Source: Streptomonospora nanhaiensis
GTDB taxonomy: Bacteria; Actinomycetota; Actinomycetes; Streptosporangiales; Streptosporangiaceae
Length of the DNA stretch: 64,000 nt
Assembly (NCBI RefSeq): GCF_013410565.1
Contig: NZ_JACCFO010000001.1
Location: 1,736,001-1,800,000 of the forward strand
Direction: 5' to 3'
Made by a program: the position numbers and the translations under genes. The notes below the pieces were generated by a model. That model did not search any database, was not told the DNA's origin, and saw nothing but the letters and a program-made list of their open reading frames with translations. The number at the start of each line of letters is the position of its first letter. Position 1 is the stretch's first letter. Shown here piece by piece: positions 15,594 to 44,433 of the stretch.

Positions 15594-16259
15594 TCATCCG
15601 GCGGCCGGCGCCGGCGCCATCAGCCGGCGCAGCTCCGCCACCGCCGCGCCGGTGCCGGCGAACCGGATCGCCTGCCAGCCCGCCGCCACGGCCCCCTCGC
15701 AGTTCTTGGCCAGGTCGTCGACCAGCAGGCACTCCTCGGGCCGCACCCCGGCGCGCTCGGCGGCGAGGTCGAACATGTCCTTGCCGGGCTTGCGCCGGCC
15801 CACCTCGAACGACATCACCACGTCGTCGAAGACCGACTCCGGCGGCACCATGCGCCGCCAGTGCGCGTCCCAGGCCGGGGGCATGTTGGAGAGCATGCCG
15901 ACGAACACGCCCCGCGCGCGCAGCGCGTGCAACTCCTCCAGCCAGACCTCGTTGGTCTCGCGGTCGTCGAACCAGGTGTCGGCGAGGGACACCAGCGAGG
16001 CGTCGATGCCGTCGGAGTCCCGCAGCACCTGGGCCACCTCGCCCAGCCACTCCTGCTCGGTCACCAGCGGGGTGTCCAGCGGCAGCATCATGTCGTCGGT
16101 GCCGTAGCGGGCGGTCACCGCGAACACGGCCCGCATCAGCGGTTCGGGCGGCAGCCCGGTCTTGGCGCAGAACGCGGCGAAGGTGTGCTCGACCGGCGGG
16201 GTGAGGACACCGCCGAAGTCGGTCCAGACGGCCTTGATGGTGGTCGGTTCGATCGTCAC
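15594..16259 (-). CDS. HAD-superfamily hydrolase
   Basis: A 221-residue HAD-IA type hydrolase. Motif I is VWTDFGGVLTPP (nucleophile Asp), motif II is VGMLSNMPP (Ser), the motif III lysine lies in RRKPGKDMFDLAAERAGV, and motif IV is CLLVDDLAKNCEGAVAAGW. Motif I is DxG rather than DxD, as in several sugar-phosphatase-like HADs. The substrate is unknown. Because AfsA-type pathways need a phosphatase to remove a glycerol-derived phosphate, this is a candidate for that step, as speculation from location only. The start is GTG 16259 with GGGGA seven bases upstream. It lies downstream of the membrane-protein gene on the same strand, 165 bases away. Confidence 0.85.
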   Translation of the reverse strand: MTIEPTTIKAVWTDFGGVLTPPVEHTFAAFCAKTGLPPEPLMRAVFAVTARYGTDDMMLPLDTPLVTEQEWLGEVAQVLRDSDGIDASLVSLADTWFDDRETNEVWLEELHALRARGVFVGMLSNMPPAWDAHWRRMVPPESVFDDVVMSFEVGRRKPGKDMFDLAAERAGVRPEECLLVDDLAKNCEGAVAAGWQAIRFAGTGAAVAELRRLMAPAPAAG

Positions 16260-16423
16260 TGGGGTGTCCCCGTTCAACTGTGCGTGCGCGTGGGCGCGGG
16301 TTCGGGCGTGGATGGTCGGCGTGGGCCTGTCAGCGGGGGTCCGCCGGGCGGGGCGCGGCTGCCGGGGCGGGCGGCGGGCCGCCCGCCCCGGCAGCCGGGT
16401 CGCGAGAGTCAGCGGGCGGGGGG

Positions 16424-17563
16424 TCAGGCCGCCGGCGCCGAGGAGGGGGCGCGGTCGGCCGCGGCCCGCCCCGCGGCGGGCGCGCCGTACTCGGCCGGGC
16501 GCGTGGCCAGGCCGCCCAGCAGGGCGCCCAGGCAGGCGGTGAACACCACGGTGCCGGTCCACATCTCGGCCGGCCAGCGGATGCCCTCGGCCAGGTGCAG
16601 GCCCAGCATCTGGAAGGACCACACCAGGGCGGGGAAGAGCGCGCCGGCCAGCGGCAGGCGCAGCAGGGCGGTGGTGCCCCGGCGCCGGTCCAGCAGCACC
16701 AGCAGGCCGTCGGCCGCGGCGGCGCCGGCGATGGCCAGCACGGCCGCCAGGGTGTGCACGTCGGGCAGCTGGTTGATGGCCAGGAAGTAGACGATCACGC
16801 CGGTGGTCACGGCGGTGCCCATGCCCGGCAGGGCGGCGCGGCGGCGCAGCATGAGGATGAGCGGGATGGTCAGCAGCAGCGTGGTGATGAAGTAGGCGGT
16901 CACGCCCTGCACCGCGACGTACTCGTCGGGGGTGTCCACGATGCCGCCGTAGTCGCCGAGCTGGGGCGCGTAGGCCACGGTGGGCGCGCCGGTCATGAAG
17001 GCCGAGACGTAGGTGAGCAGCACGGTGGCGGCGATGGCGGACATGGCCGCCGACACGATCCCGGTCACCGCCCGCCAGCCGTTCTCGCCCGAGGCCCACC
17101 ACGAGCGCAGCGGGCTGGTGACCAGCAGGAGGCCGCCGATGCTGACCAGGGTGTGGCTGGGGCTGAAGGAGGGCAGCAGGCCGATCTCGATGCCCAGGAT
17201 CTCGTGCCAGAGCATGTCGCCCACGCCGCCGGCGCCGAAGACCAGCACGCCCAGCGCGCCGACCCGGTAGCCGTTGGGCCAGCCGTCCCACCACCAGCGG
17301 GGATGGCGGTCGCGCCGCCGGTAGGCGAGCAGGAACGTCCAGGCGACCGTGGCCAGGAACCCGGTGTAGAGCACGGCGTGCCACCAGGTGAAGAAGCCCT
17401 CCAGGGTCTCGATGACGTTCTTGTGCGCCCAGCCGTCGAGGGTGACGCCGATGGTCATGACGCCGCCCAGCAGGACGGTCACCCAGTCGTCGCGCTGCGA
17501 CGCCATTCCGCTGCCGGCGCTGAGCGGGCCGGAATCCCGGCCGAGAACGGTGCTGCGGTCCAT
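16424..17563 (-). CDS. Polytopic membrane protein of unknown function
   Basis: A 379-residue integral membrane protein with about nine hydrophobic segments, for example VTVLLGGVMTIGVTLDGWAH, FFTWWHAVLYTGFLATVAWTFLLAY and AYFITTLLLTIPLILML. Conserved-looking polar residues lie in membrane segments (GWAHKN, GDMLWHEILGIE, SPSHTLVSIGG), including His and Glu. Such His/Glu placement is seen in membrane enzymes and metal-dependent proteins, but I recognise no family. The start ATG 17563 has a strong AGGAGG eight bases upstream. It is divergent from the PKS operon across a 395-base promoter region, which suggests co-regulation with it. Possible roles in export or resistance are guesses. Confidence 0.75.
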   Translation of the reverse strand: MDRSTVLGRDSGPLSAGSGMASQRDDWVTVLLGGVMTIGVTLDGWAHKNVIETLEGFFTWWHAVLYTGFLATVAWTFLLAYRRRDRHPRWWWDGWPNGYRVGALGVLVFGAGGVGDMLWHEILGIEIGLLPSFSPSHTLVSIGGLLLVTSPLRSWWASGENGWRAVTGIVSAAMSAIAATVLLTYVSAFMTGAPTVAYAPQLGDYGGIVDTPDEYVAVQGVTAYFITTLLLTIPLILMLRRRAALPGMGTAVTTGVIVYFLAINQLPDVHTLAAVLAIAGAAAADGLLVLLDRRRGTTALLRLPLAGALFPALVWSFQMLGLHLAEGIRWPAEMWTGTVVFTACLGALLGGLATRPAEYGAPAAGRAAADRAPSSAPAA

Positions 17564-17958: not shown

Positions 17959-19710
17959 ATGAAGGTTGTCCCGAAGGCGTCGACTCTCGCCGAATCGCTT
18001 TCCGCACAGGCGCGGGAGCGCGGTTCGGCGACCGTCTACCGGTTCCTGCCGGACGGCGAGAACGAAAAACGCGCGCTGACCTTCGCCGAGCTCGACCTGG
18101 AGGTGCGGGCGATCGCCGCCCACATCCAGCGGGCGGTGGCCCCCGGCGAGCGCGCGCTGGTGCTGACCTCCGAGTCGGCCGACTTCATCCGCGCGTTCCT
18201 GGCCTGCCAGTACGCCGGGGTGATCGCGGTGCCGGTCTACCCGCCGCTGCCGCTGAACTCCCTTCGCAAGACCGAGACACTGCGCGCCATCGCGCGCGAC
18301 GCCGGGGTCGCGGCGGTGCTGTCCAGCTCCACCGTCGGCTACCGGGCGCACTTCGCCACGGCCGCCCCCGAGTTGGCCGCCGCCGCGTGGATCGCGGTGG
18401 ACGCCGTCCCCGACCACGACGCCGCCGACTACCGGCCGCACCGCGCCCGGCCCGCCGACGTGGCGTTCCTCCAGTACACCTCGGGATCCACCGCCCTGCC
18501 CAAGGGCGTGGTGGTGACCAACGAGGCGCTCATGCACAACCAGGAGTACATCCGCCGCGCCGGGGACTACACCCCCGAGACGGTGATCGTGAGCTGGCTG
18601 CCGCTGTTCCACGACATGGGCCTGATCGGGACCGTGCTGCCGGCGGTCTACGTGGGCCTGGAGGCGGTGCTGATGCCGCCGCTGGCGTTCGTGCAGCGGC
18701 CGGTGCGCTGGCTGCGCGCCATCAGCCGCTACAGGGCGACGGTGGCCGGCGGCCCCAACTCCGGCTACGACCTGTGCGTGCGGCGCGTGCGCCCCGAGGA
18801 CCGCGAGGGGCTGGACCTCAGCGGCTGGCGCATCGCGTTCAACGGCGCCGAGCCCGTGCGGGCCGCCACCCTGGAGTCCTTCACCGCGGAGTTCGCCCCC
18901 CAGGGCTTCGACGGGCGCGCGTTCTACCCCTGCTACGGGCTGGCGGAGAACACCCTGATGGTCACCGGTTCGCGGATCGCCGACCCCCCGGTCACCCTGG
19001 CGGTTGACCTCGCGGTGCTCCAGAGCGAGCGCCGCCTGGCCCTGGGCGGCGGGCACCGGCTCGTGGGCTCGGGCCGCCCCCTGGAGGGCCGGCGGCTGGC
19101 GATCGTGGACCCCGAGACCCACCTGGAGGCGGCCCCCGGCACGGTCGGCGAGATCTGGTCGGCCGGCCCCGACGTGGCCGCCGGCTACTGGAACAACCCC
19201 GAGGAGACCGAGCGCGCCTTCCGGGCGCACCTGGCCGACACCGGCGAGGGCCCGTTCCTGCGCACCGGCGACCTGGGCGTGCTGCACGAGGGCGAACTGT
19301 TCGTCTGCGGCCGGTTGAAGGACGTGGTGATCGTCGAGGGCCGCAACCACTACCCGCAGGACATCGAGGCCACCGTCGAGGCCGCGCACCCGGCCGTGCG
19401 GGTCAACTGCGTCGCCGCGTTCGCCGTGGAGCGCGACGACGCCGAGCACCTGGTGGTGGTCGCCGAGATCGACCCCGCCCACCGGACCGTGGACCTCGCC
19501 GAGGTGGACCGCGCGGTGCGCGCCGCGGTCGCCGGCGCGCACAGCGTCCCCGTCGGGGAGGTCGCCTTCGTGGCGCCCGGCGCCGTACCCAAGACCACCA
19601 GCGGCAAGGTGCAGCGCCGCGCCTGCCGCGCCGCGTTCGAGCAGGGCGCGCTGACCCCGGCCCGCGGGACGTCCGCCCAGGGGTCGCGGCAATTCGAGGG
19701 AGCCAAGTGA
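17959..19710 (+). CDS. Fatty acyl-AMP ligase (FAAL) loading the PKS
   Basis: A 583-residue adenylate-forming enzyme that activates a fatty acid with ATP and passes the acyl group to an acyl carrier protein. The nucleotide-binding loop is FLQYTSGSTALPKGVVV. The core has SWLPLFHDMGLIG and PVYPPLPLNSLRKTETL, typical of FAAL rather than acyl-CoA ligase, followed by FYPCYGLAENTLMVTG. The hinge and C-terminal domain begin near LRTGDLGVLHEGELFVCGRLKDVVIVEGRNHYPQDIE, with the catalytic lysine region VPKTTSGKVQRR close to the end. It is the first gene of the PKS operon and its stop overlaps the next start by one base. The direct partner is therefore the N-terminal ACP of PKS1. Chain length of the substrate cannot be read from sequence. 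Confidence 0.95.
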   Translation: MKVVPKASTLAESLSAQARERGSATVYRFLPDGENEKRALTFAELDLEVRAIAAHIQRAVAPGERALVLTSESADFIRAFLACQYAGVIAVPVYPPLPLNSLRKTETLRAIARDAGVAAVLSSSTVGYRAHFATAAPELAAAAWIAVDAVPDHDAADYRPHRARPADVAFLQYTSGSTALPKGVVVTNEALMHNQEYIRRAGDYTPETVIVSWLPLFHDMGLIGTVLPAVYVGLEAVLMPPLAFVQRPVRWLRAISRYRATVAGGPNSGYDLCVRRVRPEDREGLDLSGWRIAFNGAEPVRAATLESFTAEFAPQGFDGRAFYPCYGLAENTLMVTGSRIADPPVTLAVDLAVLQSERRLALGGGHRLVGSGRPLEGRRLAIVDPETHLEAAPGTVGEIWSAGPDVAAGYWNNPEETERAFRAHLADTGEGPFLRTGDLGVLHEGELFVCGRLKDVVIVEGRNHYPQDIEATVEAAHPAVRVNCVAAFAVERDDAEHLVVVAEIDPAHRTVDLAEVDRAVRAAVAGAHSVPVGEVAFVAPGAVPKTTSGKVQRRACRAAFEQGALTPARGTSAQGSRQFEGAK

Positions 19711-22700
19711 TGTTTGACCGCGATGCCGTCGCCGACTGGCTGATCCGGCGGATCTCGGAGGTGCTGGAGGTGCCCGCCGAGACGGTGGCGCCCGACACCC
19801 CGTTCATGCAGATCGGCCTGTCCTCGGTGCAGGCGGTGGAGCTGACCGACGACCTCCAGCGCTGGACCGGGCTGACCATCCCCCCGACCTTCGCCTACGA
19901 CTACCCCACCATCGCCGAGGCCGCCGCGTTCGTCGCCGCCGAGGCCGCGGGCGCCGCGCCCGAGGCCGCGCCGGCCGCGGAGCGGCCCGCGGTGTCGGCC
20001 GGCGAGCCGGTCGCGATCGTGGGCATGGGCTGCCGCATGCCGGGCGGCGGCGGCCTGGAGGGCTACTGGAAGACCCTGCTGGAGGGCGTCGACGCCATCA
20101 GCGAGGTCCCCGCCGACCGCTGGGACGCCGCGGCGCTCTACGACCCCGACCCCGCGGTACCGGGCAAGATGAACACCCGCTGGGGCGGGTTCGTCGACGG
20201 GGTCACCGACTTCGACAACGAGTTCTTCGGGCTGACCGCGCGCGAGGCCGGGCGGATGGACCCCCAGCAGCGCATGGTCCTGGAGGTCGCCTGGGAGGCG
20301 CTGGAGGACGCCGGGATCGCCCCGGCCGGGCTGGCGGAGTCGGCCACCGGCGTGTTCATGGGGGCCTCCACCTACGACCACGGGGCGGCGCTGCTGTCCT
20401 CGGGCGCGGAGTCCGAGCCCTACGACGGCACGGGCGGCGCGCTGAGCGTGGTGGCCAACCGGCTGTCCTACTGCCTCAACCTGCGCGGCCCCAGCATGGC
20501 GGTGGACACCGCCTGCTCGTCCTCCCTGGTGGCCGTGCACCTGGCCTGCCAGGCGCTGCGCAACGGCGAGGCCGACCTCGCCATCGCCGGCGGCGTCAAC
20601 GTGATCACCAGCCCCAAGATCGCGCTGAGCTTCAGCAAGGGCGGCCTGATGGCGCCCGACGGCCGGTGCAAGACTTTCGACCACCGCGCCGACGGCTACG
20701 TGCGCAGCGAGGGCGTGGGCGCGGTCGTGCTCAAGCCGCTCTCGCGCGCCCTGGCCGACGGCGACCGGATCTACGCGCTGGTGCGCGGCGGCGCCGTCAA
20801 CCAGGACGGGCGCACCAACGGGCTGGCCGCGCCCAACCGCCTGGCCCAGGAGGCGGTGCTGCGCGCCGCCTACGCGGCCGCCGGGGTGGACCCCGCCGAG
20901 GTCGACTACGTCGAGGCGCACGGCACCGGCACCGCCGTGGGCGACCCCATCGAGGTGGGCGCCTTGGGCACGGTGCTGGGCGCCGGGCGGCCCGCCGACC
21001 GGCCGCTGCGGGTGGGCTCGGCCAAGTCCAACGTGGGCCACCTGGAGGCGGCCGCGGGCGTGGCCGGGCTGATCAAGACCGCTCTGGCGCTGTACCACCG
21101 CACGCTGCCGCCGAGCCTGCACTTCCAGAGGCCCAACCCCATGCTGGGCCTGGACCGGCTGCCCGTCGCCGTGCAGACCGAGGCGGCCGCCTGGCCCGGG
21201 CGCGCGGGCGGGGCCCCGCTGGCGGGGGTCAGCTCCTTCGGTTTCGGCGGCACCAACTCCCACGTGGTGCTGGCCGCCGGGCCCGAGCCGGCCGCCGGCG
21301 CGGCGGTCTCGGCGGCCGCCGAGACCGCGGCCGGCGCGCGCGGCGCCGAACCCGAGGCGCCGGTGCGCAGCCACCTGGTGCCGGTGTCGGCGCGCACGGA
21401 GGCCGCGCTGGCCCGCCGCGCCGCGGCGTGGGCCCGCCTGGCCCGCGCCAACGCCGACGACCCGTCCTGGCTGCCCCGCGCCGCCGCCGCTGCCGCGCTG
21501 CGCGGCGACCACGACCGGCACCGCGCCGCCGTGGTGGCCGCCGACGCCGCCGAACTGGCGGCCGGCATGGACGCGCTCGCCGCCGGCGAGCGGGCCGCCG
21601 ACGTCTGCGGCCCCAACACGGTGTCGCGCCGGGCCCGCCGCCCGGTGCTGGTGTTCCCCGGCCAGGGCTCGCAGTGGGAGGGCATGGGCCGGCTGCTGGC
21701 CGCGTCGGTGCCGGCGTTCCGCGCGGCGATCCGCCGCTGCGACGCCGAGATCGCGCGCTGGCTGGGCCGCTCGCTGTGGAGCGACGACACCGGGCTGGTC
21801 GCCAAGGGCACCGCCGAGGTGCAGCCGGCGCTGTTCGCCATCGAGGTCGCCCTGGCCCGCACCTGGCTGGCGTGGGGGCTGGCCCCGGCCGCCGTGGTGG
21901 GCCACAGCATGGGCGAGATCGCGGCGGCGCACGTGTCGGGGGCGCTGTCGCTGACCGACGCCGCGCGGATCGTGGTCGAGCGCAGCGGCCTGCTCACCGA
22001 GCTCTCGGGCAAGGGCGGGCTGGCGCTGGTCGAGCTGGACCTGGACGAGGCCGAGGCGATGGTGCGCGGCCGGGAGCACGAGCTGGCGGTCGCCGCGCTC
22101 AACGGCCCCCGGGCGACCGTGCTCTCGGGCGACCCCCAGGCGCTGGACGGGGTCATCGCCGACCTGGAGGGACGCGGGGTGTTCGCCCGCCGCATCACGG
22201 TGGAGTTCGCCGCGCACAGCCCCCAGGTGGAGCCGCTGCAGCCGCGCCTGCGGGCGGCGCTGCGCGGGATCGCGCCGGGCCCGGCCGAGACCGAGCTCTA
22301 CTCCACGGTCACCGGCGAGCCCGTCGACGGCCGCGAGCTGGGGCCGGAGTACTGGGAGCGCAACGTGCGCGCCACGGTGCGGTTCGCCCCGGCGCTGGAG
22401 CGGGTGCTGGCCGACGGCCACGACACGTTCATCGAGGTCGCCCCGCACCCGGTGCTGATCCGCTCGGTCACCGAGACCGCCGGCGCCTCCGGCGGCGCCG
22501 ACGTGGCGGTGGTGTCCTCGGTGCGCCGCGACGAGGACGAGGCGCGCGGCATGCTGCGCGCCCTGGGCGAGCTGTACACCGTGGGCGTGGCGGTGGACTG
22601 GACCGCCCTCTACGGCGGGACCGCCGAACACGTGGACCTGCCCCCGCACGGCTGGGACCACCGGCGCTTCCCGCTGCTGCGGCCCACCGGCACCCCGGCC

Positions 22701-25480
22701 GGGCTGCCGGGCGCAGGCGGCGCCGGCGCGGCGGCCGACGGGCTGCTGGGCCCGCGCATCCCCGTGGGGGCCGACCCCGCCCTGCGGCTGTGGGGCCTGC
22801 CGCTGGACCTGGCCTCGGCACCCGAGCTGGCCGACCACGTGGTCGACGACATCCCGGTCGTGCCCGGCGCCTACTGGCTCTCGGCCGCCGCCCAGGCGGC
22901 CGCGGCCGCCGCGCCGGGCGGGCCGGTGCTGCTGGAGGAGGTGGCCTTCGTGCAGCCCTGCCCCCTGGTGGGCGAGCGCGACCCCGGCCTGCAGCTGGCC
23001 CTGCGCCCCTCCGACGAGGGAGGCGACACCCTGCTGATCACCTCGTTCCGCGCGGGCGCCCCGGTGGTCCACGCGCGGGGCGTGCTGGGCGCCGCCGGTG
23101 GCGCGCCCGAGCACCCGCCGCTGGCGGAGCTGCGGGCGGCCTGCTCCGCACCGGAGTCCGTGGACGCCCTCTACGAGCGGCTGGGCGGCACCGGCCTGCA
23201 CTACGGCCCGCGCTTCCGGGGGCTGGCCGAGCTGTGGGCGGGCTCCGGGCAGGCGCTGGGCCGGATCGCGCTGCCCGACGGCCTGGGCGCCGGCGCGCCG
23301 CCGCTGCACCCGGCGCTGCTGGACGCCTGCTTCCACACCGTCGCGGCGGCCGTGGGCGAGCGCCAAGGCGAGCTGCCGCTGCCCTCGGGCGCCGAGCACG
23401 TGTGGTCGCGCCAGGACGCCGCCCCGCTGCGCGCGGGCTGGGTGCACGCGCGGGTGGTGGCGGCCCGGGGCCGCGACGTGGACACCGAGGTCGCCGTGTT
23501 CGACGACGCCGGAACGCCGGTGTGGTCGGCGCGGCGGCTGCGGGTGACCATGGCCGCGCGCCGCCGCGCGGCCGAGGAGGGCCGCCTCTACCAGGTGCGC
23601 TGGCAGCCGGTGGAGCCACCGCGCCCGGCGGCCGGCGCGGGGGCCTGGCTGCTGCTGGCCGACCGCGGCGGCGCCGCGCGCGCCCTGGCCGACCTGCTGG
23701 CCCGGGCCGGCGACCGCAGCCTGGTCGCCGTCCCCGGCGCCCCCGCCGCGCCCGACGAGCGCTCGCTGGAGGAGGCCGGCTACGCCGGCCTGCTCGCCGA
23801 GGCCGCCGCGCTGGGCGCGCCGCTGCGCGGCGCGGTGGACCTGCGGGCGCTGCCGGCCAGCGGCGCCGAGCCGGCGGGCGAGGCGGCGCTGGACGAGGCG
23901 GCGCTGCGCCGCCACGCCGCCGAGGCGCTGGAGCTGACCCGGGCCCTGGCCGAGGCCGCGCGCGCCGGCCGGGCGCCGCGCCTGTGGCTGGCGACCTCCG
24001 GCGCCCAGACCGCCTTCGGCGGCTCCGGCGGCGCCGGGCTGCCCGGCGCCGCGCTATGGGGCCTGGGCCGCGTGGTCGCCAACGAGCACCCCGAGACCGG
24101 CTGCACCGTGGTCGACCTGGACCGCCCGGTGCGGCGCGGCGACCTGGAGGCGTTCGCGGCGCTGCTGCGCGCCGAGGACCCCCCCGCCCAGGTGGTGCTG
24201 CGCGACGGCGCGTTCGCGCCCCGGTTGGCGCCGCTGCCCTCGGCCGCCGCCGCGGCCGAGGCCCCCGTGCGCGCGGACCGCACCTACCTGCTCACCGGCG
24301 GCCTGGGCGCTCTTGGCCTGCAGACCGCCCGCTGGCTGGTGGAGCGCGGCGCCCGGCACCTGCTCCTACTGGGCCGCTCCGCGCCCTCGGAGCAGGCGCG
24401 GGCCGCCGTCGCCGAACTGGCCGCCGACGGCGCCCGGGTGCGCGTGGAGCAGGCCGACATCGCCGACGCCGCCGCCCTGGGCGCGGTCCTGTCCGGGCTG
24501 GGCACCGACTCCCCCGACCTGGGCGGGGTGTTCCACCTGGCGGGGGTCCTGGAGGACACCCTGGTCGCCGACCTGGGCGGCGACGGCCTGCGCCGCGCCA
24601 TGGCGGGCAAGGCGCTGGGCGCCTGGAACCTGCACACCCTCACCCGCGGCCGGCCGGTGGAGCACTTCGTGCTCTTCTCGTCCATGGCCGCGGTGCTGGG
24701 CTCACCGGGGCAGGGCGCCTACGCCGCCGCCAACGCGTTCCTGGCGGCGCTGGCCGGCGAGCGCGCCGCGCTGGGCCTGCCCGCGCTGTGCGTGGACTGG
24801 GGGCCCTGGGGCGGCTCGGGCCTGGCGGTGAGCGCGGGCGGCGTGGACCGGCTGGCGGCGCGCGGTGTGCCGCCGCTGACCGGCGAGGTCGCCTTCGAAC
24901 TGCTGGACGAGGCCATGCGCGGCGGCGCGCCCAACGTGGTCGCGGCGGCGTTTAACTGGGCCGACATCAGCCGCACCGGTGCGCTGCCGAGCGTGCGGCT
25001 GCTGCTGGGCGACCTGCTGCCCGCCGACGGCGCGGCCGCGGCCCTGCGCGGCAGCGCCCGCGCGGCGGTCCTGGCGCTGGAGACCCACGAGCGGCGCGCC
25101 GAGGCGCTGCGCGGCTTCCTGCTGGAGCAGGTCGCCTCGGTGCTGGGTGCCCCGGCCGCCCGCCTGGACAGCGGGGTGCCCTTCCAGGAGCTGGGCTTCG
25201 ACTCCCTGATGGCGGTGGAGCTGCGCAACCGGCTGGAGTCGGCGCTGGAGGTCCGCCTCTCGGCCACGATGGTCTTCGCCCATCCCACCGTGGACGATCT
25301 GACCGCCGGCCTGCTGGACCGGCTGGCCCCCGACATCACCGCCGCCGCGGCCCAGGGCCCCGGCGCGGCGGCCGAGGACGGCCCGGGCGACGACGCCGAC
25401 GGCCTCGCCGAACTGGACGACGACCAGCTCTCCGCGCTCCTGGCCGAGGAGCTGGGCGTGCTCGACACGATGGAGGAGCA

Positions 25481-25484
<4 letters not shown>
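19710..25484 (+). CDS. Type I polyketide synthase, ACP-KS-AT-DH-KR-ACP
   Basis: A 1924-residue modular PKS. An N-terminal ACP (FMQIGLSSVQAVEL, Ppant Ser39) receives the FAAL-activated acyl chain. KS spans about 99-525 with Cys269 in VDTACSSSL and His404 in VEAHGTGT. AT spans about 640-945 with VFPGQGSQW, Ser733 in GHSMGE and the specificity region FAAHS, closer to the methylmalonyl-type YASH than to HAFH. DH starts around 1015 with LADHVVDDIPVVPGAYWL and has LLDACFH as its second motif; the usual Gly in HxxxGxxxxP is Asp. KR (about 1525-1710) has TGGLGALG, an LED motif and the catalytic Tyr in GQGAYAAANAF. The C-terminal ACP carries Ser1832 in GFDSLMAVEL. No ER is present, so an alpha,beta-enoyl product is predicted. 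The start ATG 19710 has GAGGGAG seven bases upstream; the next gene overlaps in ATGA. Confidence 0.95.
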
Positions 25485-28572
<3,088 letters not shown>

Positions 28573-28576
<4 letters not shown>

Positions 28577-28671
28577 CCGCCGCCGGCGCCCCCGACGGCG
28601 CCTCCGCCACCCCCGACCGAGCCGAGTCCGGCGCCGGGTCCGCCCCGGCCGCCGGGAGGGAGTCCAGATGA
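28573..28671 (+). CDS. 32-residue mini-ORF bridging PKS2 and thioesterase
   Basis: Starts in the ATGA that ends PKS2 and ends in the ATGA that starts the thioesterase, so all three would be translationally coupled. The peptide (MTAAGAPDGASATPDRAESG...) is Ala/Gly/Pro-rich with no recognisable motif. It may only keep ribosomes moving to the thioesterase start, or be a chance frame; GGGAGGGAG near its 3' end also serves the thioesterase directly. Confidence 0.35.
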
Positions 28672-29453
28672 CCATCGCCTCCGCACCGCGAAAGACCGCC
28701 GCCCTGCTGCGCACCCGCCCGGCGGTGCTGCGGGCCGCCGCGCCGCAGCCGGCCGCGACCGTGCGGTTGGTGTGCTTCCCGCACTCCGGCGGCGGCCCCG
28801 CCGCCTACCACCGCTGGGCAGCCGCGCTGGCGCCCGACATCGAGGTGTGGCCGGTCACCCTGCCCGGCCGCGCCGGGCGCGCCCGCGAGCCGCTGGCCGG
28901 CGCGTGGGGGCCGCTGGTCGAGGAGGCCACGGCCGCCGTCCTGGAGGAGGTGCCCGGCCCGGTCGCGCTGTTCGGCCACAGCCTGGGCGCCGCCCTGGCC
29001 TTCGAGGTGGCGCGGGCCATGACCCGCGCCGGCGAGCCGCCGGTGCACCTGCTGGTGTCGGCGCGCACCGCGCCGCAGCAGCCCCGCTTCCGGATCGACC
29101 TGCCGGCGGGCAACGCCGAACTGCTCGACGCGGTCGACCGGGCCTACGCGGGCGTGCCCGCGGCGGTGCGCGACTCCGCCGAGCTGCGCGACCACTTCAC
29201 CCCGATCCTGCGGGCCGACCTGGAGTTGTCCAACTCCTACACCTACCGGCCCGGCCCGGCGCTGCCCTGCCCGATCACCGCCCTGGGCGGCGAGACCGAC
29301 GCCACGGTGTCGGCCGCCGACCTGGCGGGATGGGGCGACCACACCCGCGCGGGCTTCGAGGCCCACCTGTTCCCCGGCGGCCACTTCTACCTGGAGAACG
29401 CCCCGGCCCGGGTGCTGGACACCGTCTGGCGCAGCGTCGTCCGCCCGGCCTGA
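28668..29453 (+). CDS. Type II thioesterase
   Basis: A 261-residue alpha/beta-hydrolase thioesterase of the stand-alone editing type. It has VCFPHSGGGPAAYHRWAAAL at the first strand, PGRAGRAREPL, the nucleophile elbow LFGHSLGAALAFEVA, an Asp in ALGGETDATVS and the catalytic His in LFPGGHFYLEN. Such enzymes remove wrongly primed or stalled acyl groups from PKS carrier proteins and usually do not release the final product. The start is ATG 28668 overlapping the mini-ORF stop, with GGGAGGGAG upstream. It closes the FAAL-PKS transcription unit: two strong hairpins follow in the gap to the AfsA-like gene. Confidence 0.93.
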   Translation: MTIASAPRKTAALLRTRPAVLRAAAPQPAATVRLVCFPHSGGGPAAYHRWAAALAPDIEVWPVTLPGRAGRAREPLAGAWGPLVEEATAAVLEEVPGPVALFGHSLGAALAFEVARAMTRAGEPPVHLLVSARTAPQQPRFRIDLPAGNAELLDAVDRAYAGVPAAVRDSAELRDHFTPILRADLELSNSYTYRPGPALPCPITALGGETDATVSAADLAGWGDHTRAGFEAHLFPGGHFYLENAPARVLDTVWRSVVRPA

Positions 29454-29476
29454 CCGGCGGGCGCGTTCGCGCCCTT

Positions 29477-29551
29477 CGCCCCGGCGCGCGGCGCGGCGGC
29501 CGCGCCGCGCGCCGGGGCGGACGGCGCCGGGCCGCCCGCGCGGCCCGGCGC
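29477..29551 (+). terminator. Two tandem perfect hairpins between thioesterase and AfsA-like genes
   Basis: Hairpin 1 has 18-bp perfect arms (29477-29494 and 29502-29519) with a 7-base loop. Hairpin 2 has 12-bp perfect arms (29524-29535 and 29540-29551) with a 4-base loop. They lie 23 bases after the thioesterase stop and should end or strongly reduce transcription before the AfsA-like gene. Confidence 0.7.
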
Positions 29552-29615
29552 TCCCGGCGGGCACCCCGACCCCGTATTCGATCCGCAGTCCGCGCCGAGC
29601 AGGAGATCACGCCCT

Positions 29616-30602
29616 ATGACCGAATCGACCCAGGCCCTCGCGCCGCCCCTCGACGCCCTCAGCTTCGAGCAGACCGTGCCGTGCTCGGTGGCCCACCGCC
29701 GGGCGCTGGGCGAGGTGTTCGTCGCCGACTCGGCGGCGGGCCCCGACGGCGACGTCTTCCTCGCCCTCCAGCTGCCCCGGGCGCACACGCTGTGGTTCGA
29801 CCGGACGACGCCCTTCCACGACACCTTCTCGGTGGCCGAGGCCGCCCGCCAGGGCTCGTTCGTGGCCCTGCACCGGCACCTGGGCGTGCCGGTGGGGCTG
29901 CCCTTCACCCTGCAGCGCTTCGAGTTCGCCGTGGCGGACCTGGAGTGCTACCGCGACAGCGGGACCGCCCCACTGGAGGGGATTCTGCGCTACACGGTGG
30001 CCGACCGCGCCGACCGGGGCGCCGACTTCAGCCAGATGCGGCTGCGCGGCGAGGTCGCCGTCGGCGGGCGGCAGGCCATGACGATCGACGCCGACGTCGT
30101 GTTCCTGGCCCGCGACGACTACGCCGCGCTGCGCCGCTTCCAGCTCTCGCGCAAGCCCGCCGGGGAGCCCTACACCCCGCCGCCGGCCTTCGCCCCGGAG
30201 CTGGTGGGCCGGCTGGACCGGCGCAACGTGGTCGTCGGCGACTCCCCCGCCGCGAGCGGGGCCGGCGAGGCGCGGTTCGCGTTCGTCGTGGACCGCACCC
30301 ACCCCTCGTTCTTCGACCACGACTACGACCACGTGCCGGGGCCCTTCATCGTGGAGGGGTTCCGCCAGGCCGCGCTGGTCACCGCCACCCGCACCGGGGC
30401 CGCGGACTCGCCGCTGATGGCCGTCACCGGCTGCTCCACCCGCTTCACCAGCTTCGGGGAGTTCGACTCCCTGCTGGAGTGCACGGCGGCCGTGGCCGAG
30501 GTGTCGGCCGAGGGGGCCGTGACCGTCGAGGTGGGGCTGCACCAGTTCGGCAAGCGCCTGGCCGAGGGGCGGGTCGAGCTGACCCCCCTTCCGGGGAGGT
30601 GA
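29616..30602 (+). CDS. AfsA-like A-factor biosynthesis hotdog protein
   Basis: A 328-residue protein with the two hotdog repeats of the AfsA family (PF03756). Repeat 1 runs from TVPCSVAHRRALGEVFVADSA through FLALQLPRAHTLWFD to FSVAEAARQGSFVALHRHLGVPVGLPFTLQRFEF. Repeat 2 contains RTHPSFFDHDYDHVPGPFIVEGFRQAALVTA. AfsA transfers a beta-ketoacyl group from ACP to the hydroxyl of dihydroxyacetone phosphate, and the ester then cyclises to a butenolide. Here it stands directly after a PKS whose last module leaves a beta-keto group. That suggests it takes the polyketide as acyl donor instead of, or in addition to, a fatty-acid-derived one. Start ATG 29616; GCAGGAG lies about 12 bases upstream. Alternatively it is an ordinary signal-butyrolactone synthase that controls the cluster; no receptor gene of the ArpA type is nearby. 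Confidence 0.9.
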   Translation: MTESTQALAPPLDALSFEQTVPCSVAHRRALGEVFVADSAAGPDGDVFLALQLPRAHTLWFDRTTPFHDTFSVAEAARQGSFVALHRHLGVPVGLPFTLQRFEFAVADLECYRDSGTAPLEGILRYTVADRADRGADFSQMRLRGEVAVGGRQAMTIDADVVFLARDDYAALRRFQLSRKPAGEPYTPPPAFAPELVGRLDRRNVVVGDSPAASGAGEARFAFVVDRTHPSFFDHDYDHVPGPFIVEGFRQAALVTATRTGAADSPLMAVTGCSTRFTSFGEFDSLLECTAAVAEVSAEGAVTVEVGLHQFGKRLAEGRVELTPLPGR

Positions 30603-30604
30603 GC

Positions 30605-30847
30605 GTGCCCGCGGTCGCGGAGGTCCCCGGTACCGGCGACGCCGAGGACGCCACCGAGGTCGTCCTGGTCGGCGGGCCCGCGGACATCCCCGCGGAACTG
30701 CGCGTCCACCGGCTCCGGGCCGGGGAGTCCACGATCAAGCTCCTGCACAACGGCGGCTACGAGCACTTCGAGTGCGTGGTCTCCACACTGGGGCGCGGCC
30801 GGCCCCCCGTCTTCCAGTGGACCGGGCGCACCCGCATCGCCGAGTGA
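30605..30847 (+). CDS. DUF5988-like small protein
   Basis: About 80 residues. The conserved part is VVLVGGPADIPAELRVHRL ... LLHNGGYEHFECVVS ... PPVFQWTGRTRIAE. The pattern of an N-terminal VxxGGP strand, a GYEHF box and a terminal F-x-W-T-x-R-T-x-I-A-E matches a small-protein family (recalled as DUF5988) often found beside actinobacterial PKS and NRPS genes, function unknown. The start is taken as GTG 30605, six bases after GGAGG; an in-frame GTG at 30599 overlaps the AfsA-like stop. It is clearly cotranscribed with the AfsA-like gene and is the last gene before a terminator, so it is probably an accessory protein of the same pathway. Confidence 0.75.
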   Translation: MPAVAEVPGTGDAEDATEVVLVGGPADIPAELRVHRLRAGESTIKLLHNGGYEHFECVVSTLGRGRPPVFQWTGRTRIAE

Positions 30848-31164: not shown

Positions 31165-32412
31165 GTGAAATCGACAGGTGGACCCGCACCTGGCCCGGTG
31201 GACGTCCGGACGCGCTCGCTCGCGCCGGATCTGACCCGGGGCTACATGCTGCTGCTCATCGCGCTGGCCCACGCTCCGCTGTTCATCGCCACCGGTGAGG
31301 CCACCGGCGCCGACCGGATGGTGGAGACGGTGCGCACGCTGCTCGTGGACCAGCGGGCCCGCCCGCTGTTCGCCTTCCTGTTCGGCTACGGCCTGGTGCA
31401 GATCATGCTGCGCCAGCAGGCGCGCGGCGCCGAGGAGTGGGGGCCGATCCGCCGGATCATCAGCCGCCGCGGCCTGTGGATGGTGGTCATCGGGCTGGCC
31501 CACACCCTGCTGTTCGTGGACATCATCGCCGTCTACGGGCTGGTGTCGATCCTGTTCGTGGGCCTGCTGCGGGTCTCCGACCGGGCGCTGCTGTGGGGGG
31601 CCGGCCTGGCCATGCTGCCCACGCCGGCCATCGGCTGGATCGTGGCGGGCGGCGCCCTGGCCGGGGAGCCGGGGATCATCACCACCTCCATGACCATGCA
31701 GGACCCCTGGGTGTCGGCCGCCCACCGGTTCCAGTCACTGCCGGTGGAGTTCGCCGGACGCATCCTGGGGGTCACCCCCGCGCTGCTGATGGGCTTCTGG
31801 GCGGCGCGGCGGCGGATCCTGGACGAGCCGGCGCGCTACCGCCGCCCCCTGGTCGTCACCGCCGTGGCCGGGCTGGGCACCGCCGTGGTCGGCGGGCTGC
31901 CGGCCGCGCTGATGTACTCGGGCGCGTGGACGCCGCCGCCCGCGCCCCTGGACCAACTGCTGGCGACCCTGCACTACCCTGCCGGGTTCGCCGGCGGGCT
32001 GGGCTGGGCGGCGCTGATGGGCCTGCTGGCGCTGCGGCTGGACGCGGCCCGGGGGCGCCTGGCCACCGCCGTGGAGGCGCTGGGCCAGCGGTCGATGAGC
32101 TTCTACCTGCTGCAGTCGGTGGTGTTCGTGCTGCTGTTCACCCCTTACGCGCTGAACCTGGGCGCCGAACTGAGCGTGACCGAGGCGTCCCTGGTGGCGG
32201 TGGGCGTGTGGACGGCCTCCCTGGTGCTGGCCGACCTGATGCGCCGCGCGGCGCACCGGGGCCCGGCCGAGATCCTGCTGCGCCGGTTGACCTACGGACG
32301 GCCCGCGCCCGCGGGGGCCGCTGGGGGTCCGGGGGGTGCGGGGGCCGCGTCGGCGCCCGGCGCCGGACCGGCGGCCCGGGGCCCGGCACCGGGGGCCGGG
32401 CCCCGGGCCTGA
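31165..32412 (+). CDS. DUF418 membrane protein
   Basis: A 415-residue integral membrane protein of the DUF418 / YeiB family. The N-terminal part has RSLAPDLTRGYMLLLIALAHAPLFI, then RARPLFAFLFGYGLVQIMLRQQARG and RRGLWMVVIGLAHTLLFVDIIAVYGLVSIL, the standard family pattern. The C-terminal conserved stretch is ALGQRSMSFYLLQSVVFVLLF. About ten membrane segments are visible, and the last 35 residues are a Gly/Ala/Pro-rich tail. The start is GTG 31165 five bases after AGGAGA. Members are of unknown function, possibly acyl transfer or transport. It lies between the PKS block and the pump block; a role in the pathway is possible but unsupported. A perfect 15-bp hairpin follows. Confidence 0.88.
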   Translation: MKSTGGPAPGPVDVRTRSLAPDLTRGYMLLLIALAHAPLFIATGEATGADRMVETVRTLLVDQRARPLFAFLFGYGLVQIMLRQQARGAEEWGPIRRIISRRGLWMVVIGLAHTLLFVDIIAVYGLVSILFVGLLRVSDRALLWGAGLAMLPTPAIGWIVAGGALAGEPGIITTSMTMQDPWVSAAHRFQSLPVEFAGRILGVTPALLMGFWAARRRILDEPARYRRPLVVTAVAGLGTAVVGGLPAALMYSGAWTPPPAPLDQLLATLHYPAGFAGGLGWAALMGLLALRLDAARGRLATAVEALGQRSMSFYLLQSVVFVLLFTPYALNLGAELSVTEASLVAVGVWTASLVLADLMRRAAHRGPAEILLRRLTYGRPAPAGAAGGPGGAGAASAPGAGPAARGPAPGAGPRA

Positions 32413-33092: not shown

Positions 33093-35366
33093 TCAGGTCG
33101 CGGCGGTCTGGCCCTTGGGGGCCACGGCCGAGTCTCGGGCGGGCGACGGCGGGGTCCCCGGCGCGGCCGGGTCGTCATCGTCGTCGCCGCTCTCCTCGGG
33201 GATGCCCCAGCGCTGCCACCAGCGGGCCATGGGCGCCGGCGCCCACCAGGCCCACCGGCCCAGCAGCCGCATGGTGGCGGGCACGAGGAGTCCGCGCACG
33301 ATGGTGACGTCGACGGCCAGTGCGATCACCAGGCCGACGCCGATCATCATCAGCACGCTGATGCGGGTGAGCATGAACGAGGCGACCACCACGCCCAGCA
33401 GGATCGCCGCGGCCGTCACGATGCGCGCGGTGTGCTGGACGCCGTAGGCCACCGACTCCACGGTGTCGCCCGTCTTGAGGTAGTTCTCGCGGATGCGGGC
33501 CAGCATGAACACCTCGTAGTCCATGGCCAGGCCGAAGGCCACGGCCGCAACGAGGAGCGGCATGTTGGCGTCGATGTAACCGGGCGACTCGAACCTCAGC
33601 AGGCCTGAGAGGTATCCCTCCTGGAATATCAGCACCATGCCGCCGTAGGCCGCCGACAGCGACAGCGCGTTGAGGACGAGCGTCTTGATCGGCAGGATCA
33701 CCGACCCGAAGGCCATGAACAGCACCACGAACGACACGACCGCGATGATGAGGCCCATCCAGATCAGCCGCTCCCAGAGCATGTCGAGCATGTCGACGAC
33801 ACCGAAGGGGCGGTTGGTGAACAGGGCCTCGGCGCCCTCCGGCGGGTCGAGCGCGCGCAGCTCCTCGGTCATGGGCCCGGCCTCGGGGCCCATGGGGTCC
33901 ATCAGGTAGTACAGGGTGATCCGGGCGAGGTCGCCGTCGGTGCCGGTGACCGAGCCGCGGGTGATGCCCTCGGTGGCCACCATCTCGTCGGTGAACTCCT
34001 CCAGCTGCGCCTGCGCCTGGGGCGTCTCGGCGGAGCCGGGCATGCGCACGACCACGGTGACGATCTTGCTGGGGTCGAACCCGAAGTCCTCCGCCAGCTC
34101 CTCGGTGACCACCAGGCTGTCGGTGCCCGGCGGCAGCGCCCACTCGGCGGGCCGCGCCCAGTTGGCGCTGAGCAGCGGCAGGCCCAGGGTGATCAGCACC
34201 AGCACCAGCGACACGGTGGTGAGCACCGGCCGGCGCATGACGGCGTGGGCGGTGCGGTACCAGCCCTGGCCGCCGCCTTCGGCGCCGTGCCGCGCGTCGC
34301 GGCGGCGGCCGAACCGCGGCAGCGGCACCCGCAGGGAGTTGACCCGGGGGCCGACGATGTAGAGCAGGGCGGGCAGCACGGTGACGGCCGCGATGACCGC
34401 GAAGATCACCACGCTGACACCGGCCCAGGCCAGCGACATCAGGAACCGCGACGGGAACACCAGCAGGCCGCCCAGCGTGGCGGCGACGGTCAGACCCGAC
34501 ACCACCACGGTGCGCCCGGCGGTGGCCATGGTGCGGGTGACCGCCTCGGCCACCGGCTGGCCCTTGGCCAGCTGCTCGCGGAACCGGTTGACGATCAGCA
34601 GCGCGTAGTCGGTGGCCAGGCCCAGGCCCAGCACGATGACGACGTTGATCGCGATGGTGGACAGGTCGACGAACCCGCCGACCAGGCGCAGCACGGCCAG
34701 CGATCCGACGGCCACCACGATGGCGATGGACAGCGGCAGGAGCGCGGCGATCACGCTGCGGAAGACGAACAGCAGCAGGACGAGCAGCAGCGGCGTGGCG
34801 ACCAGCTCGATGACACCCAGGTCCTCGGCGCTGATGCCGTTGAACTGGTCGTTGACCGCGATCAGCCCGCCGAAGCGCTCCTCCAGCTCCTCGACCTCCA
34901 GCAGCGCCTCGAAGTCGGTGTTCTGGTAGTGCTCGACCCGCTCCTCCTCGCTGCTCCCGGGCAGCTGGAAGGTGATGTAGGTCTTGTGGCGGTCCTCCGA
35001 CACGTAGTCGTCGGCCTCGATGGGCCCGGGTCCGGGCTCCCAGTGGCTGCGCTGCCAGTCGTAGGCGTCGGCGGGGACGCGGGCCACCGCCTCCTCGACC
35101 AGGCGGCGGAACTCGGGGTCGTCCACCGTCATGTCGTCGCTCTCGTAGACGACGATGACATCGGCGGTGTTGCGGCCGAGGTCGCCCTCCTGGAGGATCT
35201 CGTCGGCCTGCGTGGACTCGGCGTGGGGGTCGTCGAGCCCGCCTCCGCCGCCGAGCGTGCCCCCCGCCCCGGCCCCCCAGACCCCGCCGAGGACGATGAA
35301 CAGGACGGCGACGGCTAACACCCATCGACGGTGCCGGATGCAGAACTGGCCTAGTGCGGAAAACAT
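33093..35366 (-). CDS. MMPL/RND-type membrane transporter 1
   Basis: A 757-residue, 12-segment membrane protein of the MMPL family, which uses the proton gradient to export lipids and lipidic natural products. The N-terminal helix (RRWVLAVAVLFIVLGGVWG) is followed by a first outer domain. A five-helix block contains GLGLATDYALLIVNRFREQLAKG with the proton-relay D-Y-A pattern and GRTVVVSGLTVAATLGGLLVFP, and a second half repeats it (FGLAMDYEVFMLARIRENYLKTG). The tail is acidic. The start ATG 35366 has AAGGA six bases upstream. The upstream region contains two MerR-type operators, linking its expression to the MerR gene at 14845. Export of the PKS product is the likely role. Confidence 0.93.
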   Translation of the reverse strand: MFSALGQFCIRHRRWVLAVAVLFIVLGGVWGAGAGGTLGGGGGLDDPHAESTQADEILQEGDLGRNTADVIVVYESDDMTVDDPEFRRLVEEAVARVPADAYDWQRSHWEPGPGPIEADDYVSEDRHKTYITFQLPGSSEEERVEHYQNTDFEALLEVEELEERFGGLIAVNDQFNGISAEDLGVIELVATPLLLVLLLFVFRSVIAALLPLSIAIVVAVGSLAVLRLVGGFVDLSTIAINVVIVLGLGLATDYALLIVNRFREQLAKGQPVAEAVTRTMATAGRTVVVSGLTVAATLGGLLVFPSRFLMSLAWAGVSVVIFAVIAAVTVLPALLYIVGPRVNSLRVPLPRFGRRRDARHGAEGGGQGWYRTAHAVMRRPVLTTVSLVLVLITLGLPLLSANWARPAEWALPPGTDSLVVTEELAEDFGFDPSKIVTVVVRMPGSAETPQAQAQLEEFTDEMVATEGITRGSVTGTDGDLARITLYYLMDPMGPEAGPMTEELRALDPPEGAEALFTNRPFGVVDMLDMLWERLIWMGLIIAVVSFVVLFMAFGSVILPIKTLVLNALSLSAAYGGMVLIFQEGYLSGLLRFESPGYIDANMPLLVAAVAFGLAMDYEVFMLARIRENYLKTGDTVESVAYGVQHTARIVTAAAILLGVVVASFMLTRISVLMMIGVGLVIALAVDVTIVRGLLVPATMRLLGRWAWWAPAPMARWWQRWGIPEESGDDDDDPAAPGTPPSPARDSAVAPKGQTAAT

Positions 35367-35553: not shown

Positions 35554-36624
35554 TCAGAGGAAGGCCATGGCCCGCACGGGTGCGCCGAATCCGCCGCGCA
35601 GCTTGGGCACGCCGACGATGAGGGTGGCCCCGCGCTCGGGCACCTGGTCCAGCGCGGCCAGGTTCTCCAGCCCGTAGCGGCCCGTGGTCAGCAGCGTGCG
35701 GTGGGTCAGCGGCTCCACCCGGGTGCCCACGTCCAGGCTGGTGGTGTCGGTGCCGAACCCGACGATGTCGCGCTCGGCGATCAGGAACTCCGCCGCCTCC
35801 ACGCTGACGCCGGGAAAGCGCATGACCTCGGCCGCCCGGTCGAACTGGAGGAACGCCTCGGCGTCGTCCACCCGCCGGTACCAGCCGCTGTCCATGGCCA
35901 CGAACGCGCCCTCGGGGATGCGGCCGTGCTCGCGCTCCCAGCCGCGCAGGTCGTCCACGGTCAACTCGGTGGTGTTCTCCCGCTCGGCGCGGTCGGCGAT
36001 GCGCACCACCACCAGGGGGGCGACCAGGTCCTCCAGCCGGATCTCGTCGGCGGTGGCCAGGCCCGCCTCGGAGTGCGCCGGCACGTCCATGTGGGTGCCG
36101 GCGTGCTCGTTGAAGGTCCACTCCGCGGAGTTGAACCCCATCACGTCCTCGAACATGACCTGCCGCTGCTCGGGCTTGCGCACGTAGAACTGGAACACCG
36201 GGAAGTCCGCGCTGAGCGGGTGGGTGAGGTCCACGATCCGCCGGCCGCCCCGGCGCAGCATGTCGGGGACCGACTCCGGATAGTCGGAGGGGGCCGGGGG
36301 GTCGGCCGGCGCGGCCGCGGCCGCCGCCGGCGAGGCGGCGAGCACGGCGGTGCCGGCCAGGCCCAGCGCACCGGCCACGGCGGCCCGCAGCGCGGTGCGC
36401 CGGGAGGTGGCGGCGCGGCCGGGCGCCGCTGAGGCGTCCGCCTCGGCCGCGCGGGCCTGCGGCCCGGCCGGGCGGGGGCGGCGGTCCACGGTGCTTCCGG
36501 CGTGGCCGGGGTGTCCGTCGGTGCGGGCGCCGGCCTCCGGCGCGTCCGCGCCCGCCTGGTGGCACCGGCACACGTGCTGGTCCTGCGCGCCGATCGCGGC
36601 CAGGATCACTTGGGGCGAGCACAT
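35554..36624 (-). CDS. Exported cyclase-family (kynurenine-formamidase-like) hydrolase
   Basis: A 356-residue metal-dependent hydrolase of the cyclase family. The hallmark HxGTHxDxPxH appears as HAGTHMDVPAH, with further family blocks RIVDLTHPLSADFPVFQF, GAFVAMDSGWYRR and DIVGFGTDTTSLD. The N-terminus MCSPQVILAAIG is typical of actinobacterial relatives. After an unusually long spacer of about 65 residues comes a twin-arginine signal (SRRTALRAAVAGALGLAGTAVLA), so export by Tat is likely. Family members hydrolyse amides or lactones, or carry out cyclisation. The start ATG 36624 has GAGGAG eight bases upstream. It is 26 bases downstream of MMPL2 on the same strand, so the two are probably cotranscribed. 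The enzyme may act on the exported product; substrate unknown. Confidence 0.88.
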   Translation of the reverse strand: MCSPQVILAAIGAQDQHVCRCHQAGADAPEAGARTDGHPGHAGSTVDRRPRPAGPQARAAEADASAAPGRAATSRRTALRAAVAGALGLAGTAVLAASPAAAAAAPADPPAPSDYPESVPDMLRRGGRRIVDLTHPLSADFPVFQFYVRKPEQRQVMFEDVMGFNSAEWTFNEHAGTHMDVPAHSEAGLATADEIRLEDLVAPLVVVRIADRAERENTTELTVDDLRGWEREHGRIPEGAFVAMDSGWYRRVDDAEAFLQFDRAAEVMRFPGVSVEAAEFLIAERDIVGFGTDTTSLDVGTRVEPLTHRTLLTTGRYGLENLAALDQVPERGATLIVGVPKLRGGFGAPVRAMAFL

Positions 36625-43286: not shown

Positions 43287-43358
43287 ATGACCGCACACCG
43301 CAGTTCCCCCCACTCCGCCGGCCGCCGGCGGCCCCCCGGCCGGGCGGGCGCGCGATGA
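43287..43358 (+). CDS. 23-residue mini-ORF coupled to KASIII
   Basis: ATG 43287 follows AAGGAG by nine bases. The frame (MTAHRSSPHSAGRRRPPGRA...) ends in the ATGA that starts KASIII, which has no ribosome binding site of its own. It is probably a translational entry leader for KASIII rather than a functional peptide. Confidence 0.45.
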   Translation: MTAHRSSPHSAGRRRPPGRAGAR

Positions 43359-44356: not shown

Positions 44357-44433
44357 CCCGGCCCGCCCCGGCCGCGCCGCGCCACGCGGCCGGCCTCGAC
44401 CACGCAACACCCAACCAACGAGGAGCCTGGACC

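Follow-up and report, generated by a model that had tools for sequence, protein, structure and literature searches.

A stand-alone AfsA-family protein as candidate releasing enzyme of a FAAL-primed polyketide synthase line in Streptomonospora nanhaiensis

A FAAL-PKS line followed by a separate AfsA gene

The window analyzed here (G000:C1:1736001-1800000) is a stretch of 64,000 nucleotides from the genome of Streptomonospora nanhaiensis (G000; 6.28 Mb, two contigs). It contains a polyketide synthase (PKS) line headed by a fatty-acyl-AMP ligase (FAAL) and followed by the gene for an AfsA-family protein, and we consider here whether that protein releases the polyketide chain. A first-pass annotation had placed six genes with their domains at 17959-30847; Pfam and NCBIfam matches, motifs and codon-position GC bore this out, with the GC signal backing all six as genes (Table 1). 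Several FAAL models were among the best NCBIfam matches of the first gene, every one scoring under its own cut-off. A motif scan found all of the ketosynthase (KS), acyltransferase (AT), dehydratase (DH), ketoreductase (KR) and acyl carrier protein (ACP) motifs in PKS1, and active-site motifs were present in PKS2 as well. The AT of PKS1 carried FAAHS in six of seven PKS1 proteins, a motif that cleanly matches neither of the two AT specificity motifs. The Pfam scan of PKS2 found no KR, DH, enoylreductase (ER) or thioesterase (TE) domain, which is the unreduced, TE-less last module called for by release through a phosphorylated-butenolide synthase (PBS).

The AfsA domain is not fused to this last module and is encoded by a gene of its own, the sole AfsA gene that a profile search found in G000. 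The protein matched PF03756 in two stretches with 112.8 bits (cut-off 24), placing it in the AfsA superfamily. Two triads, E75/R78/Q79 and E247/R250/Q251, which we take to be catalytic, were invariant in 11 aligned AfsA sequences. An AlphaFold2 model built from an eight-row alignment (pLDDT 77.4, pTM 0.82) was a double hotdog, with these E-x-x-R-Q triads on the central helices of the two halves (residues 70-88 and 242-259). ETxRQ has been described as the ScbA motif, carried by 693 out of 985 homologues (PMC10569655). The best PDB fold matches to the model were acyl-ACP and acyl-CoA thioesterases, and a viral fold library gave one hotdog thioesterase at E ≤ 0.001. By sequence, one search returned no solved AfsA structure at E ≤ 1, and a second structure search gave four matches at E ≤ 10, the best being a hydratase (5cpg_A, 0.0033).

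Table 1. Features of the window, with positions counted from its first nucleotide
Feature	Position	Strand	Domains or motifs	Proposed role or occurrence
FAAL	17959-19710	+	PF00501, PF23024	Proposed fatty-acid loading onto first ACP
PKS1, ACP-KS-AT-DH-KR-ACP	19707-25484	+	Pfam domains (two ACPs)	
PKS2, KS-AT-ACP	25481-28576	+	Pfam: KS, AT, ACP and linkers only	Proposed beta-ketoacyl-ACP supplier
Stand-alone TE	28668-29453	+	PF00975; GHSLG and PHSGG	Proposed editing enzyme
AfsA-family two-hotdog protein	29616-30602	+	PF03756, twice	Proposed trans-acting PBS off-loading PKS2
DUF5988 small protein	30599-30847	+	PF19450, 76.3 bits	
HAD-family phosphatase	15594-16277	-	PF00702	Proposed dephosphorylation of AfsA product
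DUF418 membrane protein	31198-32412	+		Also beside Nocardiopsis and S. mangrovi clusters
MMPL exporter	33093-35366	-	PF03176	Homologues in S. mangrovi, Nocardiopsis, G121 and Nonomuraea clusters
Cyclase-like protein	35554-36624	-	PF04199	70-77% identical in G121, G009, Nocardiopsis, Nonomuraea
Second MMPL exporter	36651-39011	-		Also in S. mangrovi and Nocardiopsis
Flavin monooxygenase	39137-40771	-	PF01494	Proposed butenolide tailoring; 61-72% identical in clusters outside the genus
Two SARP regulators	41144-41953, 42052-42837	+	PF03704	
KSIII, ACP, KSII set, after the SARPs	43355-45911 (ACP 44434-44685)	+		Possible rival donor or neighbouring pathway

Conservation of the AfsA gene, the preceding module and a phosphatase

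The first-pass annotation had suggested comparative genomics for conserved FAAL-PKS-AfsA neighbourhoods, and these exist: homologues of FAAL, PKS1, PKS2, TE and AfsA occurred in the same order in other genera, so the gene arrangement is not due to chance. FAAL lay directly upstream in eight out of 11 loci where the contig permits a look. The PKS2 and FAAL searches scored up to four and six candidates per genome, respectively. AfsA was present in 37 out of 200 family genomes, with identities of 94% and 60%, then 41-43% in PKS-linked loci, and 37% and less thereafter. In Streptomonospora mangrovi, the nearest named relative that came up, AfsA was 94% identical. Within the genus, two out of six genomes carried the gene, G000 included. 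A draw of 394 genomes from the class, with up to five candidates scored per genome, gave three matches above 500 bits (G000, G080 and G221) and a next match of 212 bits; since the three are the profile's own rows or near copies, the gap shows only that the draw held no other close member.

In a tree of 54 AfsA proteins, the 13 encoded beside type I PKS genes formed one clade (SH-aLRT 99). The PKS label required a single change on the tree, and none of 500 shuffles scored as low. This tree came from a quick search without bootstrap, with rows picked by likeness to the window's AfsA; we assigned the PKS labels ourselves, judging L080-L105 on about 1.5 kb of flank. Repeats of one gene, hits without a locus and three genes longer than 450 aa (G016, G075 and G103) were left out. 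The last three were called as 595-608 aa (L043 9742-11553, L048 and L028); the G016 protein matched only PF03756, with the best stretch in its C-terminal part, and has either a long N-terminal part or a wrong start. The sister group of the PKS-linked clade (SH-aLRT 88, not firm) comprised L038, L039 and L082, in which AfsA, HAD and flavoprotein genes lie together with no PKS in the stretches read. Because of this sister group, the tree suggests that an AfsA-HAD-flavin pathway may have been joined onto a FAAL-PKS front end.

An unreduced, TE-less module ended the PKS protein before AfsA in 12 out of the 13 loci, ten by Pfam and two by motifs. Pfam gave KS-AT-ACP in the window, L034, L035, L054, L055, L058, L059 and L076, and KS-ACP in L036 and L037; the two read by motifs were S. 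mangrovi (93% identical) and Frankia, where the contig end truncates the protein. The loci of G163 and G150 deserve attention: although the rest of their PKS differs, an unreduced KS-ACP protein once more stands ahead of AfsA. A loose DH pattern of the motif scan matched once each in PKS2 of G121 and G009, where Pfam showed no DH, and its ACP pattern missed two PKS2 proteins in which Pfam shows an ACP. With gene starts in the relatives taken from our own codon-GC caller, AfsA overlapped the upstream gene by 4 nt in six out of 13 loci (G121, G009, Nonomuraea, S. hoynatensis, N. harenae and NBRC 109706). As a side observation, PKS1 of Nonomuraea gerenzanensis (L076 10374-16192) reads as two overlapping frames, which could reflect a sequencing error or a break.

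Further investigation revealed a HAD-family phosphatase gene that the first-pass account of the cluster did not include. In the same 200 family genomes, with up to 14 candidates scored per genome, close homologues (E ≤ 1e-30) occurred in 11 genomes, G000 included, and all 11 lay on the AfsA contig within 14 kb of AfsA; chance figures for this co-location ignore relatedness. The distance was 18-260 nt in seven genomes and 11.6-13.5 kb in four PKS clusters, and two of the 11 matches carry an internal stop (G121 and G067). Among 21 plasmid records with a HAD match, several of them from Vibrio, neighbours were read in two Streptomyces plasmids, and HAD adjoined AfsA on both. A phosphatase after the AfsA-type step has been proposed or required for MMF, SRB and SAB (PMC7037778, PMC12301235, PMC7756379). 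We take the window's HAD as the phosphatase of this pathway, with the AfsA product as its presumed substrate.

Proposed release of the chain and competing explanations

Taking these gene data together, we regard release of the PKS2-bound chain by the separate AfsA protein as the best reading, and its probability as a little above even. FAAL would activate a fatty acid and load it onto the N-terminal ACP of PKS1, which would add one unit and reduce it to an enoyl thioester. PKS2 would add a further, unreduced unit, giving a 3-oxo-4-enoyl chain on its ACP. AfsA would then take this chain and condense it with dihydroxyacetone phosphate (DHAP), the putative C3 donor, releasing a phosphorylated 2-acyl butenolide from which the HAD phosphatase would remove the phosphate. 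Tailoring of the ring or the tail could fall to the flavin monooxygenase, perhaps together with the PF04199 protein, while the MMPL proteins could export the product and the stand-alone TE could edit stalled chains. The final structure may be a butenolide or a furan, as in the methylenomycin furan (MMF) pathway.

Several observations weigh against this reading. In Streptomyces NBRC 109706, a member of the same clade, the PKS is AT-ACP-TE (L057 370-2604), with KSIII and flavoprotein genes between this TE-ending protein and AfsA. The window's AfsA scored 168.9 bits on the ScbA/BarX equivalog NF041195, below its cut-off of 200. Out of the 37 genomes with AfsA, 26 had no HAD at E ≤ 1e-30, and in seven out of 13 loci (S. 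hoynatensis, N. harenae, N. anaemiae, NBRC 109706, Frankia, G163 and G150) the stretches read around AfsA gave no call of a window-type HAD. Frankia CIT1 has a HAD of another Pfam family, PF12710 (L056 12603-13271), unlike that of the window and 6.5 kb downstream of AfsA. Finally, the AfsA gene of the window may be expressed apart from the PKS genes, because the 162-nt gap between TE and AfsA carries GC-rich hairpins (29466-29560) whose fold is stronger than that of shuffles (z -4.3) and which could be a terminator or an attenuator. The idea of a conserved hairpin was dropped, as z was only -0.83 in S. mangrovi.

The strongest alternative, which we nevertheless consider unlikely, is that the beta-ketoacyl-ACP used by AfsA comes from fatty acid synthesis or the KSIII-ACP-KSII set, with hydrolysis of the PKS chain left to the stand-alone TE, giving two products or one product from two chains. 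Consistent with such a donor, and counting against PKS2, this set is conserved in S. mangrovi and Nocardiopsis; in N. anaemiae, the PKS is preceded by ACP and KSIII-like genes, and in NBRC 109706 a KSIII gene lies beside the neighbour of AfsA. In G163 and G150, an ACP gene and two KSII-like genes lie upstream of the modular PKS that precedes AfsA (L074 9794-12554 in G163). AfsA also occurs with KSIII, ACP and KSII in L040, L051 and the S. goshikiensis plasmid. On the other plasmid its companions are KSIII and KSII, an ACP being absent from the listed genes, and in none of these cases did the stretches read show a type I PKS. By contrast, the stretches read of G121, G009, Nonomuraea, S. hoynatensis and N. 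harenae, where FAAL-PKS-AfsA remains, yielded no homologue of the set, and in the six loci with a 4-nt overlap AfsA overlaps an upstream gene of the PKS series. Two side observations concern these loci. The upstream genes of G163 and G150 could make theirs a mixed type I/type II line, and the S. goshikiensis plasmid (L117 974-9377) combines AfsA, HAD and FabG with two KS genes and with genes for an ACP, a KSIII and acyl-CoA carboxylase, possibly another PKS-fed AfsA.

In part, then, the first-pass proposal that the separate AfsA protein receives its beta-ketoacyl-ACP from PKS2 has gained support, from the clade, the unreduced modules, the overlaps, the co-located HAD and the finding of no ScbR-type receptor over cut-off in G000; the TE of NBRC 109706 and the KSIII, ACP and KSII genes continue to speak against it.

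That receptor bears on a second alternative, in which AfsA synthesizes a gamma-butyrolactone-type hormone as an on-switch for the cluster and takes no part in the PKS product. We judge this improbable. Regulation of antibiotic production is a widely reported role of AfsA-type genes (PMC6930871, PMC5974925), and the cluster contains two SARPs. However, with NF041196 as the only model tried, no ScbR/ArpA-type receptor exceeded the cut-off in G000 (best 68.9 bits against 150), and one passed in just one out of 12 cluster-bearing genomes searched (G009; Nonomuraea was outside the search), with two Nocardia just under the cut-off at 142.5 and 140.1 bits. In the ScbA-like branch of the tree, five out of ten neighbouring genes tested were ScbR receptors, whereas the clade of the window's AfsA goes with PKS genes. 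The missing receptor and the tree together weaken the hormone-synthase idea for this gene. Four out of eight other genomes contained a second, distant AfsA, so a hormone role is possible in those genomes.

Marginally less probable again is a hotdog enzyme acting on the chain in another way, by hydrolysing it, dehydrating it or condensing it with another sugar partner, as the thioesterase fold matches and the proposed use of a pentulose by MmyD, an AvrD-like enzyme (PMC12593393), might suggest; PF03756 over cut-off on both halves, the conserved E/R/Q triads and the HAD co-location point instead to a phosphorylated product.

Two further candidates fared worse. The stand-alone TE as releasing enzyme is weakened by its editing-type motifs, with PHSGG being what we presume to point to an editing TE; the integrated TE of NBRC 109706 keeps this option alive in places. 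The region ahead of AfsA, to which the search for TE genes was confined, contained none in S. hoynatensis, N. anaemiae, G163 and G150. DUF5988 was rejected as a partner of AfsA. In the window, the predicted start of its gene and the end of AfsA share 4 nt, and it adjoins AfsA in S. mangrovi and Nocardiopsis too, but only two (G000 and G080) of nine matches in seven out of 60 genomes did so. By coordinates, the DUF5988 gene of G021 lies about 107 kb and that of G222 more than 4 Mb from AfsA, and those of G003, G013 and G028 are in genomes without an AfsA match, so DUF5988 occurs without AfsA.

Known systems and the wider cluster

In the salinipostin spt cluster, an AfsA homologue is said to contribute to the biosynthesis of an unusual butyrolactone. 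The closest precedent is gladiostatin/gladiofungin from Burkholderia gladioli, in which an AfsA-type enzyme off-loads the beta-ketoacyl chain of the final PKS ACP by means of a C3 unit derived from DHAP, as would happen here, and the cluster has putative phosphatase genes, as the window's cluster has HAD (PMC7756379, PMC7756420). The fused AfsA-like domain released ACP-bound 3-ketothioesters with DHAP in vitro (PMC7756379). By contrast with its C-terminal position on a trans-AT PKS (PMC7756379, PMC7756420), the AfsA of the window is a separate protein behind a cis-AT, FAAL-primed line of two proteins, in an actinomycete cluster with flavin monooxygenase and MMPL genes. The gladiofungin authors also reported that Gloeobacter, Paenibacillus and Ruminiclostridium contain orphan assembly lines with an AfsA domain at the end (PMC7756379, PMC7756420). 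Because of the fused Burkholderia domain and these other lines, the kind of release is known already; what would be new here is a separate AfsA after a cis-AT FAAL-PKS. We found no FAAL-PKS with a stand-alone AfsA in the literature searched, in which coverage of subscription journals was thin.

The MMF and AHFA systems (MmfL-MmfP-MmfH and AhfaL-AhfaP-AhfaH) combine a butenolide synthase, a phosphatase and a flavin-dependent monooxygenase, and by gene family alone the window has the same trio in AfsA, HAD and PF01494. The MMF and AHFA substrate comes from fatty acid synthesis and the regulators are of TetR type (PMC7037778), whereas the window's trio is PKS-linked and its genome gave no ScbR-type receptor over cut-off. 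The SRB and SAB butenolide and A-factor/ScbA gamma-butyrolactone systems share an AfsA-family enzyme with the window and have a proposed phosphatase step; they are hormone systems with a receptor (PMC12301235, PMC7756379), in contrast to the window, where the protein falls under the NF041195 cut-off and no such receptor exceeded its own.

More tentatively, at a likelihood somewhat short of even, the stand-alone AfsA clade of Streptomonospora, Nocardiopsis, Nonomuraea, Streptomyces, Frankia, Nocardia and relatives may consist of trans-acting PBS enzymes that release cis-AT polyketides, with the slot after the unreduced module perhaps exchangeable. If so, actinomycete AfsA enzymes would not be just hormone synthases: ordinary cis-AT lines would have in them a free-standing means of releasing their polyketides as butenolides, and pathways of this sort could be recognized by an AfsA gene with a HAD phosphatase of the window's type beside it. 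Combining a separate release enzyme with other assembly lines might be easier than doing so with a fused domain, and an AfsA gene in a cluster should not automatically be taken for a regulator.

The possible exchange of the slot is suggested by G086, a genome with no AfsA match, which held the next-best PKS2 among the candidates scored (50% identical, 837 bits; the following one 46%, 696 bits). Its line reads ACP, KS-AT-DH-KR-ACP, KS-AT-ACP (L118 7704-18984, L119 2953-4578). Next after PKS2 comes a gene for an 871-aa protein that contains a class III aminotransferase domain, and a desaturase, a P450 and the FAAL lie further downstream. A similarly built line, judged by its predicted domains, is thus present with another enzyme in the slot held in the window by AfsA or TE-AfsA. 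PKS1 and FAAL of G086 were only about 42% identical to those of the window, a generic level, and only PKS2 was closer than that.

The extent of 17959-30847 given in the first-pass annotation proved too small, as HAD, PF01494, PF04199, MMPL and SARP genes recur with the cluster; because of this recurrence, the final product is probably not a bare butenolide. In G121, G009, Nonomuraea gerenzanensis and Nocardiopsis sp. NRRL B-16309, homologues of the window's HAD, MerR regulator, PF04199, PF01494 and SARP genes surround AfsA. The MMPL homologue is found in G121, N. gerenzanensis and Nocardiopsis sp. NRRL B-16309, and the G009 contig ends beyond HAD. The first SARP also occurs in S. mangrovi, Nocardiopsis, G121, G009 and Nonomuraea, and the second in S. 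mangrovi and Nocardiopsis. Among the PKS-free loci, a homologue of the PF01494 flavin monooxygenase adjoins HAD after AfsA in L038, L039 and L082, and L038 also has a homologue of the second MMPL exporter. A second form of the cluster, in S. hoynatensis, Frankia CIT1, Nocardia harenae and Streptomyces NBRC 109706, has a different PF01494 flavoprotein just before AfsA; an amine-oxidase-like protein and a short-chain dehydrogenase come next in N. harenae and NBRC 109706.

Two other genes of the window deserve mention. A 379-aa protein without a Pfam match (16424-17563) has homologues of about 60% identity beside the corresponding cluster in G121 and Nonomuraea, and 866-3760 encodes a family 9 glycosyl hydrolase with cellulose-binding domains.

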